Positions 12,879 through 57,728 of a DNA stretch of 64,000 nucleotides are shown one piece after another. A program made the translations under genes and the position numbers. The stretch is from Nevskia sp. Lineage in GTDB: Bacteria; Pseudomonadota; Gammaproteobacteria; Nevskiales; Nevskiaceae. The DNA lies in assembly GCA_016779605.1 (NCBI GenBank), contig JADHNH010000003.1, positions 1-64,000 on the forward strand. Direction: 5' to 3'. The stretch's first letter is position 1. Each line of letters begins with the position of its first letter. The notes under the pieces are model-generated. The model did not search any database, was not told the origin of the DNA, and saw only the letters and a list, made by a program, of their open reading frames with translations.

Positions 12879-12908
12879 GAGCTACGGCCGGGCACGGTGG
12901 TCCTCTCA

Positions 12909-13061
12909 GAGAAGCTCTGAATAATCGGAGCTTCCCGCCTGGGCCACGGACGGCCCAACAGTTTCAATGGCGTAAGCCGTTGAAAATGAAGATCGTTGAA
13001 AATCACGCTTTTCGACGGCTGTCGTCTGAATAAATCCAGGATGGACCTATTCAGAGTTCCT
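12909..13061. repeat. Five-hairpin dispersed repeat, copy 1
   Basis: About 150 bases that recur at 56478-56633 and fill the gap between two convergent genes. Stems in order: 12911-12917 with 12928-12934, 12940-12945 with 12952-12957, 12962-12971 with 12976-12985 (loop GTAA), 12994-13002 with 13009-13017, and 13025-13037 with 13043-13055 (loop AGGAT, two mismatches). The right end touches the TAA of the minus-strand ATL gene. It could be a structured RNA in 3' UTRs, a bidirectional terminator, or a MITE. Confidence 0.75.
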
Positions 13062-13394
13062 TTAGTCCAGCAGCGGGCTGTCGCCGCCGGGCCGCCAGCC
13101 GAAGCGGGACAGGTCCACCCGGCCGCCGGCGAAGCGCACACCCTCGTCGCGTAGCCGGCGCTTCTGTTCGCGGTGCCCGGGGCTGTTCGGCGGCAACGAA
13201 ATGCGGCCCTGGGAATTGATCACGCGGTGCCACGGCAGGGCCGGCACGTCGGCCGCGGAAAGGGCCGCGCCGACCAGGCGGGCGCCGCGCGGCAGGCCGG
13301 CCAGCCGCGCGACCTGGCCATAGGTCGCCACGCGGCCTGCGGGAACCGTGCGGACCACCTTCCAGATCGCCGGGAATGCAGCATTCGAAGTCAT
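13062..13394 (-). CDS. Alkyltransferase-like protein (ATL/YbaZ)
   Basis: 110 residues corresponding to the DNA-binding domain of O6-methylguanine-DNA methyltransferase. The active-site PCHRV of a true methyltransferase is PWHRVINSQG here (Trp at 55 in place of Cys), which defines ATL proteins. The arginine finger region GLPRGARLVGAAL and the tyrosine in VATYGQVA are present. ATLs flip and bind bulky O6-alkylguanines without repairing them and hand them to nucleotide excision repair. The start ATG at 13394 gives the standard MTSNAAFPAIWKVV N-terminus. The TAA stop lies at the edge of the five-hairpin repeat. Confidence 0.9.
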   Translation of the reverse strand: MTSNAAFPAIWKVVRTVPAGRVATYGQVARLAGLPRGARLVGAALSAADVPALPWHRVINSQGRISLPPNSPGHREQKRRLRDEGVRFAGGRVDLSRFGWRPGGDSPLLD

Positions 13395-15442: not shown

Positions 15443-17116
<1,674 letters not shown>

Positions 17117-55723: not shown

Positions 55724-56467
55724 ATGAAGACCCTTGCGGTCTACAACGTGAAGGGCGGGGTGGGCAAGACGGCCACCTCGATCAACCTGGCGTACCTCGC
55801 CGCGCAAAGCGGGCGCAGCACGCTGCTGTGGGATCTCGACCCGCAGGCGGCTGCAACCTGGTACCTGCAGGCCAAAGGCGGCGAGGGGCCCGGCAAGGCG
55901 CAGTGGAAGGCCGGTTCGGAGCTGCGCGCCCTGATCCAGCCGACCCCTTACGAAAACCTGCACCTGCTGCCGGCGGGCCTGGACAACCGGCACCTGGACG
56001 TATGGCTGCGCAAGGACGATGCGCGCGATGCGCTGGCGCAGCGCCTGGAATCGGTGGCCGGGGACTACGACCTGGCGATTCTCGACTGCCCGCCGAGCCT
56101 GTCGCACCTGGCGGACAACATCTTCACCGCCGCCGACCTGGTGCTGGTGCCGGTGGTGCCCACGCACCTGTCGCTGCGCGCGCTCAAGGCCCTGATCGAC
56201 TATTTCCGCGAGGAATCCTATCCGCGCAGCCGCCTGAAGCCGTTCTATTCGATGGCCGACCGCCGCCGGCTGCTGCACCGCACGCTGATCGAGCAGCCGC
56301 CCAAGACCATGCGCGACGTCTGCCGGGCCGTCATTCCGTATACCTCGGCGGTCGAGCGGATGGGCGAGCACCGCGCGCCGGTGGAAGCGTTCGAGGCTTC
56401 CGCGCCGGCCGCCGAAGCCTACCGCGAGCTGTGGAAGGAAGTGAACGCCGCCCTGCGCGGGCGTTGA
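55724..56467 (+). CDS. ParA/MinD-family ATPase (orphan)
   Basis: 247 residues. Deviant Walker A KGGVGKTATS at about residue 10, Walker A' DLDPQAA, Walker B LDCPPSL and a C-terminal RMGEHRAPVEAF. It is a ParA-type ATPase of the short class, without the N-terminal HTH of plasmid ParA. No parB lies next to it, and the chromosomal parAB pair is usually elsewhere (near mnmG-rsmG). It could position the origin region or another cargo. It is encoded on the plus strand, with the five-hairpin repeat beyond its stop. Confidence 0.88.
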   Translation: MKTLAVYNVKGGVGKTATSINLAYLAAQSGRSTLLWDLDPQAAATWYLQAKGGEGPGKAQWKAGSELRALIQPTPYENLHLLPAGLDNRHLDVWLRKDDARDALAQRLESVAGDYDLAILDCPPSLSHLADNIFTAADLVLVPVVPTHLSLRALKALIDYFREESYPRSRLKPFYSMADRRRLLHRTLIEQPPKTMRDVCRAVIPYTSAVERMGEHRAPVEAFEASAPAAEAYRELWKEVNAALRGR

Positions 56468-56477
56468 ACGCCGCTTA

Positions 56478-56633
56478 GGGAAGCGCTGATTAATCAGAGC
56501 TTCCCGCTTGGGCCACGGATGGACCAACCACTTTCAATGGCGCAAGCCATTGAAATGGAAGGCCGTTGAAAATCACACTTTTCGACGGTCGTCCTTTCGA
56601 ATAAGTCCAGGATGGACTTATTCGAAAGTGTCC
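56478..56633. repeat. Five-hairpin dispersed repeat, copy 2
   Basis: The same element as at 12909-13061, again between convergent genes (ParA gene and purK). Stems: 56479-56504 (26-base near-palindrome), 56508-56515 with 56520-56527, 56532-56541 with 56546-56555 (loop GCAA), 56563-56572 with 56579-56588, and 56595-56608 with 56614-56627 (perfect 14-bp stem, loop AGGAT). Two base pairs of the last stem are changed on both sides relative to copy 1 (T-A to C-G and C-G to T-A). The right end touches the purK TAA. Confidence 0.8.
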
Positions 56634-57728
56634 TTAAGCCGATGCGCAGCGGTCGATCAGGCGCTGCACCCGCCGCAGCCGCGCATCCAGGCTGCGCTGG
56701 TCCGCCGCGGTGACGGTGGCGTGCCCGATCTTGCGCTGCGGTTTCGGCGTCTTGCCGTACAAATGCACGTGCACGCCGTCGAGTGCGGCCAGCGCCTGCG
56801 TGGCGGGTGCGGTGCCGATGAAATTGAGCATGGCGCTGGCGCCGCGCAGGCGCGTGGAGCCCAGCGGCAGGCCGCAGATCGCGCGCAGGTGGTTTTCGAA
56901 TTGCGAGCATTCCGCGCCTTCGATGCTCCAGTGCCCGGAGTTGTGCACGCGCGGGGCGATCTCGTTGGCCAGCAAGGCATCGCCGACGGCGAAGAACTCG
57001 AACGCCAGCACGCCGACGTAATCCAGCCGCTCGAGCACCGCGCGCGCGTGGCGTTCGCCCAGCGCCTGCAGCGGATCCTTCGGCAGCGGGCGCGCGGTGC
57101 GCAGGATGCCGTCGCAGTGCACGTTTTCCACCAGCGGATAGAAGCGCGCGCCGCCGTCGCGCCCGCGCACTGCCAGGCAGGACACCTCGCGCTCGAAGGC
57201 GACGAAGGCCTCCACGATCAGCGGCTGCGACCCGAGCTGTGCCCAGGCCGCGTCGAAATCGGCGGCCGCGCGCAGCACCATCTGGCCCTTGCCGTCGTAG
57301 CCCATGCGGCGCGTCTTGAGCACCGCGGGCAGGCCGGTGTAAGCGGTGGCGGCGTCGAGGTCCGCGCGGCTGTCGACCGCGCAAAAGCGCGGCACCGGGA
57401 TGTCCAGCGACTCGAACAGCCGCTTCTCGGACAGCCGGTCCTGGCCTGCCGCCAGCGCCTCCGGCCCGGGCATCAAGGGCACGCGCGCGGCCACGAAGGC
57501 GGCAGCGTGCTCCGGCACGTTCTCGAACTCGTAGGTGGCCAGGTCGATCCCCGCGCAGAACCGCTGCAGCGCGGCCTCGTCCAGGTAGTCCGCACGCAGG
57601 TGCTGCCCCAGCGGGGCGGCGCAGGCTTCCGTGGCCGGATCCAGGAAGGCGAAATCCAGGCCCAGCGGATAGCCCGCAAGGGCCAGCATGCGGCCCAGCT
57701 GGCCGGCGCCGAGGATGCCGATTTTCAC
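56634..57728 (-). CDS. purK: 5-(carboxyamino)imidazole ribonucleotide synthase
   Basis: 364 residues, ATP-grasp enzyme. MKIGILGAGQLGRMLALAGYPLG start, YEFENVPEHAA, ATP-grasp core TGLPAVLKTRRMGYDGKGQ, and EIAPRVHNSGHWSIEGA. It carboxylates AIR in purine synthesis with ATP and bicarbonate and passes the product to PurE, whose gene is 30 bases upstream. Start ATG 57728. The TAA at 56634 touches the five-hairpin repeat, so its message ends within or just after that structure. Confidence 0.97.
   Translation of the reverse strand: MKIGILGAGQLGRMLALAGYPLGLDFAFLDPATEACAAPLGQHLRADYLDEAALQRFCAGIDLATYEFENVPEHAAAFVAARVPLMPGPEALAAGQDRLSEKRLFESLDIPVPRFCAVDSRADLDAATAYTGLPAVLKTRRMGYDGKGQMVLRAAADFDAAWAQLGSQPLIVEAFVAFEREVSCLAVRGRDGGARFYPLVENVHCDGILRTARPLPKDPLQALGERHARAVLERLDYVGVLAFEFFAVGDALLANEIAPRVHNSGHWSIEGAECSQFENHLRAICGLPLGSTRLRGASAMLNFIGTAPATQALAALDGVHVHLYGKTPKPQRKIGHATVTAADQRSLDARLRRVQRLIDRCASA

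Follow-up and report, generated by a model that had tools for sequence, protein, structure and literature searches.

A family of inserted elements, each folding into five consecutive hairpins, is dispersed through the genome of Nevskia sp. and recurs across its order, class and phylum. These elements carry terminal inverted repeats and target duplications of the IS5 type, their stems are maintained by covarying changes, and two of their loops present GGA on one strand only. As judged from ends, duplications and empty sites, the family can be regarded as an established IS5-group MITE, and selection on its structure is established as well. The sense strand probably acts as RNA. The interpretation favoured here, which is given about an even chance of being right, is that this MITE gives rise to a structured RNA which would bind CsrA/RsmA; the mobility and the structure are shown, while the transcription and the binding are predicted.

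Two copies, both on the + strand, lie in the window, which comprises the whole stretch of 64,000 nucleotides that was analysed. The original prediction placed them at 12909-13061 and 56478-56633. Sequence, fold, and BLAST and covariance model matches all bear out an element at both places and shift the exact bounds to 12910..13061 for copy 1 (152 bp) and 56479..56633 for copy 2 (155 bp), which are 83% identical by BLAST. Each copy folds into the five consecutive hairpins that had been proposed, copy 1 at -64 kcal/mol (z -5.1) and copy 2 at -85.6 kcal/mol (z -11.1), and an equally stable fold was reached by 0 of 200 shuffles in either case.

In copy 1, hairpin 1 (12911..12934) is the self-folded left terminal inverted repeat. 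It is followed by hairpin 2 (12940..12957), whose loop CCACGGACGG fits the motif CANGGANG, by hairpin 3 (12962..12985) with a GUAA loop, by hairpin 4 (12993..13019) with a UCACGC loop, and by hairpin 5 (13025..13055), which has the loop CCAGGAUGG and a 3′ arm that forms part of the right terminal inverted repeat. In copy 2, hairpin 1 (56478..56505) is the self-folded left terminal inverted repeat GGAAGCGCTGATTAATC, and its first base is the last base of the left target duplication. Hairpins 2 (56508..56527, loop CCACGGATGG, also fitting CANGGANG), 3 (56528..56558, GCAA loop), 4 (56561..56590, UCACAC loop) and 5 (56594..56628, loop CCAGGATGG) complete the series. The reported difference between GUAA and GCAA in the third hairpin is present, together with one T-A pair that becomes T-G there. 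The two pairs of the last stem said to be changed on both sides are neighbouring pairs near the stem foot, where copy 2 carries a compensated change relative to copy 1. In copy 1 the last stem also has two A-C mismatches side by side, which had been missed and by which this copy is somewhat decayed.

Copy 1 is flanked by the target duplications TCAG (12906..12909) and TTAG (13062..13065), and copy 2 by TTAG (56475..56478) and TTAA (56634..56637), with one mismatch in each case. On the right side, both duplications contain the stop codon of a convergent gene, TAA on the - strand, at 13062-13064 and 56634-56636 respectively. Mechanical open reading frames over copy 1, including one of 777 aa in a frame that differs from that of the called gene, were rejected as genes. 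Elsewhere in the window, at 16535-17020, there is a 117-nt direct repeat that is 85% identical and has a spacing of 369 nt.

The genome-wide search for further copies carries the family far beyond two. BLAST with copy 1 yields 30 matches in this genome, including short and reverse ones, and the covariance model R1 yields 39 matches, of which seven are reverse-strand echoes and the rest mark 32 distinct places. The model R2 yields at least 34 matches, six of them at new places; combined, the two models mark at least 38 places, part of which hold fragments. BLAST with copy 2 in 17 congeners gave no match. An alignment (A2) was made of 20 near full-length copies among the 25 longest, with the truncated L013, L017, L019, L022 and L023 omitted. 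Under the five-hairpin structure, 93.6% of its 1085 cells are paired, and pairing falls to 27-51% when the partner is slid by 1-3 columns. Two-sided changes occur at 17 of 55 pairs, compared with 8.1 +/- 1.7 in 500 shuffles, double-change cells number 45 compared with 16.3 shuffled, and the covariation score is 0.162 compared with 0.100. The covariation read as a sign of selection on structure was too little in two copies and is proven by these 20. As a separate observation, the 3′ arm of hairpin 1 is partly duplicated in L014:1501-1668 and L017:163-321, with an extra GAGCTTCC, as from slipped or template-switched copying.

The element has the features of an inserted transposon. Reading inward, its ends are GGAAGCTCTGATTAATC on the left and GGACACTCTGAATAAGTCC on the right. 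Perfect TTAG or CTAG duplications flank 7 of 20 copies in this genome, the remainder being imperfect or unrecognisable, and 17 of 29 class elements have a perfect YTAR-type duplication in register. Empty sites are also found. Copy 1 is missing from the orthologous spacer of two congeners, G013 and G004, the first of which has a single TCAG at the convergent gene end, and copy 2 is missing from the orthologous spacer of the congener G016. A further copy, L008, interrupts a short repeat that is found uninterrupted at L061, where it has one TTAG, as judged from matches of 21 and 29 bp; a solo left-end hairpin at L061:417-497 adjoins this empty form.

The element is too short to encode a transposase. 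The one match to Pfam DUF772 in the genome is an IS5-family transposase (351 bits, with a cut-off of 140) within the genome's own IS5 element (NCBIfam transpos_IS5_4, NF033581), which spans 1160 bp at L060:1276-2435. This element has the ends GGATTCTCTGATTAGTC and GGATGGTCTGAATAACCCC, with TTAG on each side; compared with the ends of the MITE, they agree at 14 of 17 and 14 of 19 positions. Among the best 80 of 313 relatives of the L060 transposase in named records, 64 have GGANNNTCTGANTAA-like ends on both sides (at least 13 of 15 letters); YTAR adjoins both ends in 51 of these 64, and the duplications are identical in 43. The GGANNNTCTGANTAA terminal inverted repeats and the YTAR duplication are common to IS5-family MITEs, the genome's own IS5 element and the new family, and IS5-family MITEs likewise lack a transposase of their own and are mostly intergenic. 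The five-hairpin interior, kept across different inverted repeats, sets the new family apart: none of 81 IS5 loci (the best 80 of 313 relatives together with L060) contains it above chance, the two matches obtained being at chance level (E 0.15 and 0.56). An autonomous IS5 parent carrying the five hairpins was rejected on this count. In the region L060:1276-3638, the IS5-family element is directly followed by a second transposase gene (transpos_IS5_3 model), which has a weak IS630-like N-terminal match, the two adjoining transposase genes being dissimilar.

The claim of a MITE-like dispersed family with no coding function holds, with the addition of the IS5 group. The suggested comparison with MITE and RAYT families had a mixed outcome, as the IS5-group MITE is affirmed and the REP is not. 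REP/RAYT systems, as treated in the available part of PMC3733652, are dispersed intergenic hairpins in gammaproteobacteria, as is the element. However, the REPs described in that part are 20-40 bp long and many are GTAG-tagged, whereas the window elements measure 152-155 bp and have inverted repeats and a 4-bp duplication. Identity with such a palindrome was rejected by size and ends.

The family is not confined to one species. With stricter filters, R1 finds matches in five of 58 genomes of the taxonomic family, namely this genome, G004 (7 matches), G013 (1 match) and, marginally, G011 and G018. The elements of G004, along with L232 and L233 of this genome, have the five-hairpin plan but different stems, and their ends mostly differ too, such as CAGGCTG or CAGTTCGTTG; several have YTAR-like flanks. 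The model R2, which was built from both types, extends the family to 16 of the order's 85 genomes, representing 11 of 21 genera. All 77 matches outside this genome were fetched together with the new ones inside it; most of the higher-scoring loci fold singly into the same hairpin order (by eye), and some low-scoring loci (L335, L336, L343, L344) have no clear five-hairpin order. The model R3, built from an alignment (A9) of 50 order-wide elements, finds the element in 78 of 369 class genomes sampled, representing 60 of 272 genera, and at phylum level in 50 of 398 genomes, 46 of the latter lying outside the class and 38 of these in one family (f211); in both scans the best 7 candidates per genome were scored, which makes copy numbers lower bounds and leaves absence unproven. 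Distant elements have the same ground plan with different stems and different inverted repeats. A scan of named genomes for a conserved 24-mer gave no match, nor did searches of plasmids with two elements, of phages with one and of viral contigs with a single 21-mer.

Several variants were seen during these searches. Class genomes contain head-to-tail arrays, with three matches 124 bp apart at G103:C1:2569116-2569527 and two matches 166 bp apart at G150:C135:12438-12775. Another type, which has GAGAGCTTGTGAATT in hairpin 1 and differs in the loop of hairpin 4 (L307, L309, L310 and L324 in G004, L295 in G020), is common to two genera. The marginal R1 matches L237:1337-1468 and L238:1501-1670 (E 4e-4 and 1e-3) are other multi-hairpin repeats with CCANGGATGG loops in a different layout, and are possibly relatives. 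In L292, the GGA hairpin unit TTGGTACATGGAAGTACCAACGCGAAGCG is present twice.

Order-wide, the structure persists as the sequence diverges. At a mean pairwise identity of 52%, 91.4% of 2561 cells in A9 are paired, compared with 62.1% shuffled; since this alignment was made to fit the structure, its figures are biased in favour of pairing, a bias from which the single-sequence folds are free. Two-sided changes occur at 55 of 55 pairs, in 732 cells compared with 224 shuffled, and covariation reaches 0.653, compared with 0.179 shuffled and at most 0.089 slid. The claim that selection keeps structure rather than sequence stands on both the 20 copies from this genome and the structure-fitted order-wide set, and in neither are stems lost as by drift.

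The most conserved feature is the pair of GGA loops in hairpins 2 and 5, and not the GNRA-like loop. In A9, the hairpin 2 loop reads A (44/49), N, G (48/49), G (49/49), A (47/49), and the hairpin 5 loop reads A (42/50), G (49/50), G (47/50), A (49/50). The hairpin 4 loop keeps C (42/45), C (39/45) and G (38/45), and the GNRA-like loop is less conserved (31/47, 29/46, 36/45 and 34/44). Among the 20 copies in this genome, GGA differs in 1 of 60 cells in hairpin 5 and in 6 of 60 in hairpin 2, where the final A is lost in 4 of 20 copies. The motif CANGGANG occurs 118 times on the sense strand of 108 elements, in 82 of them, compared with 5 times on the antisense strand and a shuffle mean of 7.1 (20 shuffles); these elements comprise 77 from other genomes and 31 from this one, and since same-genome copies are related the counts are not independent. 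It is also found on the sense strand of 28 of the 29 best-scoring elements taken one per other class genome (2 antisense matches), and in 8 of 11 top-scoring loci from outside the class. GGA lies in the loops of at least two hairpins in 67 of the 108 elements, of one hairpin in 30 and of none in 11, and 26 of the 29 class elements have it in at least two. The idea of CCANGGATGG hairpins scattered over the window apart from the element was rejected, as the single match (0.83 expected) lies inside copy 2.

The choice of strand can be read from imperfect pairs. For this purpose, hairpins were found with Watson-Crick pairs only and the other pairs were then scored. In the 108 elements there are 93 G-T and 31 A-C cells; with one count per distinct context and genome these become 56 and 28 (p 0.003), and with genomes collapsed 35 and 21. 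In A9 there are 127 G-T and 48 A-C cells, or 66 and 31 in columns at least 80% Watson-Crick. The 29 class elements have 27 and 4 (p 3e-5) and the 11 elements outside the class 10 and 3, all elements having been collected with G-U-tolerant models and the class and phylum sets being top-scoring loci. In the 20 type I copies of this genome, the two are about equal (34 and 26) without the inherited hairpin 4 wobble. A lack of clear preference in young same-genome copies is as expected if these are drifting after insertion, and lasting lineages do show one. Taken with the conserved loops, the excess of G-T over A-C outside this genome indicates one strand. It favours RNA; folded single-stranded DNA would give the same sign, G-T being more stable than A-C in single-stranded DNA too.

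Template switching between arms possibly produced some of the double changes, and an account of the family as a plain IS5-group MITE with no RNA function can be built on it, in which inherited palindromes are kept symmetrical by template switching and a few masters spread in bursts. The hallmarks of a MITE are indeed present, neighbouring bases change jointly on both arms as such switching would have it (in hairpin 5 of copy 2 and in the outer part of hairpin 3 of several copies), and G-T and A-C are nearly balanced among copies in this genome. However, template switching does not explain why the GGA loops stay nearly invariant while the stems turn over, why G-T exceeds A-C order- and class-wide, or why the same five-hairpin order occurs with different inverted repeats across genera. 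This account is considered unlikely. Somewhat more doubtful is a folded single-stranded DNA or cruciform whose loops are the sites recognised by the transposase or a host protein while the element moves. Strand-specific loops and the G-T excess fit single-stranded DNA too, and the inverted repeats lie within the end hairpins, but the ends and the YTAR duplication are of the IS5 (DDE) type, which moves double-stranded DNA. In addition, the transposase does not seem to need hairpins, given the 81 IS5 loci that have none of this kind above chance.

Binding of the transcript by CsrA/RsmA is the best-supported guess for what the conserved loops do. The motif CANGGANG (5′CANGGANG3′) is given as Rsm-binding in PMC6849547. 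According to the accessible text of PMC4333381, CsrA motifs are usually paired since CsrA itself is dimeric, and it was on two such motif matches that TwoAYGGAY was put forward as a CsrA-binding RNA. Paired hairpins with ANGGAN loops, as in the element, occur in CsrB, RsmX/Y/Z, RsmW, RsmV and TwoAYGGAY, and there are weak sense-strand matches. In a relaxed Rfam scan of 27 element loci, the clan CL00106 (RsmW, RsmV, TwoAYGGAY) appears below threshold in 8 (L296, L240, L279, L283, L316, L300, L291 and L280), always on the sense strand; 16 of the 24 relaxed matches are to unrelated families. No CL00106 match reaches the gathering score, the best being 36.7 bits compared with 52 for RsmW (L296), and the type I loci scanned (copy 2, L007, L009 and L012) have none even at relaxed thresholds. 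Rfam yields no family over its cut-off, either at gathering scores in the whole window or at relaxed ones in the 27 loci and window 56300-56800. The element differs from the known CsrA/RsmA-sequestering RNAs in falling below every gathering score and in being mobile, multicopy and framed by inverted repeats.

The genome has one CsrA gene. In the class, a CsrA match is found in 69 of 78 element-bearing genomes compared with 244 of 291 others (p 0.38), or, among good genomes only, in 66 of 69 compared with 214 of 245 (p 0.05). Nine element-bearing class genomes have no CsrA match, and three of these are at least 90% complete. CsrA presence was rejected as a predictor of the element, the difference being marginal at most.

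Other known RNAs and repeats come close in part. RsmU of Xanthomonas campestris is an RsmA-sequestering RNA with several GGA motifs that derives from a 3′ untranslated region, as stated in the available portion of PMC7694677. Compared by that description only, it differs in coming from one mRNA, in being reported from Xanthomonas alone and in not being called mobile there. A 50-genome survey of ncRNAs (PMC11109978) includes, in the part available, structured motifs termed MRSC that have many copies per genome, as the element does. One of these, MRSC-65-2, is a single long stem, unlike the element; the survey counts 250 such candidates, and the family may overlap with some of them. No description of the element was found in the literature searched, which consisted of main texts mostly from open journals, and no Rfam 15 family matched at threshold. 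A MITE review (PMC10969869) does not mention CsrA or RsmA.

The insertion sites bear on a possible role in host transcripts. Gene context was scored with a frame-competition gene caller, and long flanks were available for 30 of 38 places, of which 13 lie between convergent genes, 11 between tandem and 4 between divergent genes, and 2 at contig edges. The convergent context accounts for 13 of 28 copies with two called neighbours compared with 10 of 57 gene pairs in the window (Fisher p 0.009); by length, convergent spacers already make up 1946 of 6452 intergenic bp in the window, elements included. A gene 3′ end lies at most 5 nt from the element in 19 of 30 copies. YTAR sites are rare in the window: leaving aside the elements there are 41, of which 9 coincide with stop codons, 2 fall within genes and 30 lie elsewhere, so that stop codons are natural targets. 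The 19 of 30 still exceed the 9 of 41 (p 1.3e-6), a comparison subject to the caveat that in-gene insertions would be lost and that insertion may itself create a stop. Relative to the gene it abuts, the element shows almost no bias in orientation (10 sense, 8 antisense, 1 both), which argues against a 3′-UTR role, as such a role would not predict this.

A bidirectional transcription terminator or mRNA 3′-end stabiliser between convergent genes would suit this context, the nearby gene ends and the similar tail-to-tail bias described for Pseudomonas fluorescens repeats in the part of PMC2718517 consulted, but it is very doubtful, as the stop-codon position partly follows from the YTAR target, convergent spacers are already extensive by length, termination has no need for invariant GGA loops, and neither window copy has a terminator-like site inside it. 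A search for intrinsic terminators (a GC-rich hairpin and then a T tract) found none in either copy and one chance-level site outside copy 1.

In the favoured reading of a MITE with a CsrA/RsmA-binding transcript, one strand of a non-autonomous IS5-group element of about 155 bp would encode an RNA structured as five hairpins in a row. Two of these, hairpins 1 and 5, would double as the ends for an IS5-type transposase, which presumably acts in trans. Insertion takes place at YTAR-like sites (TTAG, CTAG, CTAA); because these are rare in the genes of this GC-rich genome and often found at stop codons, the element tends to land just behind genes, where it can come to lie in the 3′ untranslated RNA. 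The ANGGAN or AGGAN loops of hairpins 2 and 5 would be the pair of sites clamped by a CsrA/RsmA dimer. The transcript could then serve as one of many dispersed sponges, or the element could be a site through which the host transcript is protected or regulated, presumably to the benefit of element or host. No promoter-like site was found near either window copy, which counts against this reading.

MITEs are usually regarded as decayed insertion sequences with incidental folding. In this family, a defined fold and strand-specific loops resembling protein sites are kept across classes while the transposon ends change. A broader and more tentative proposal, which is given rather less than an even chance, is that of a phylum-wide superfamily of mobile riboregulators, in which IS5-type MITEs with one fold have exchanged stems and terminal repeats and titrate CsrA/RsmA. 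Through their copy number and their insertion behind genes they would thereby tune the host's Csr/Rsm network, to the profit of either the element or the host. The covariance model can be used to annotate many unexplained intergenic repeats. If the RNA does bind CsrA/RsmA, a transposon would carry sponges for this regulator into genomes, which would provide a route for Csr/Rsm networks to gain decoy RNAs and a reason for the persistence of the element.
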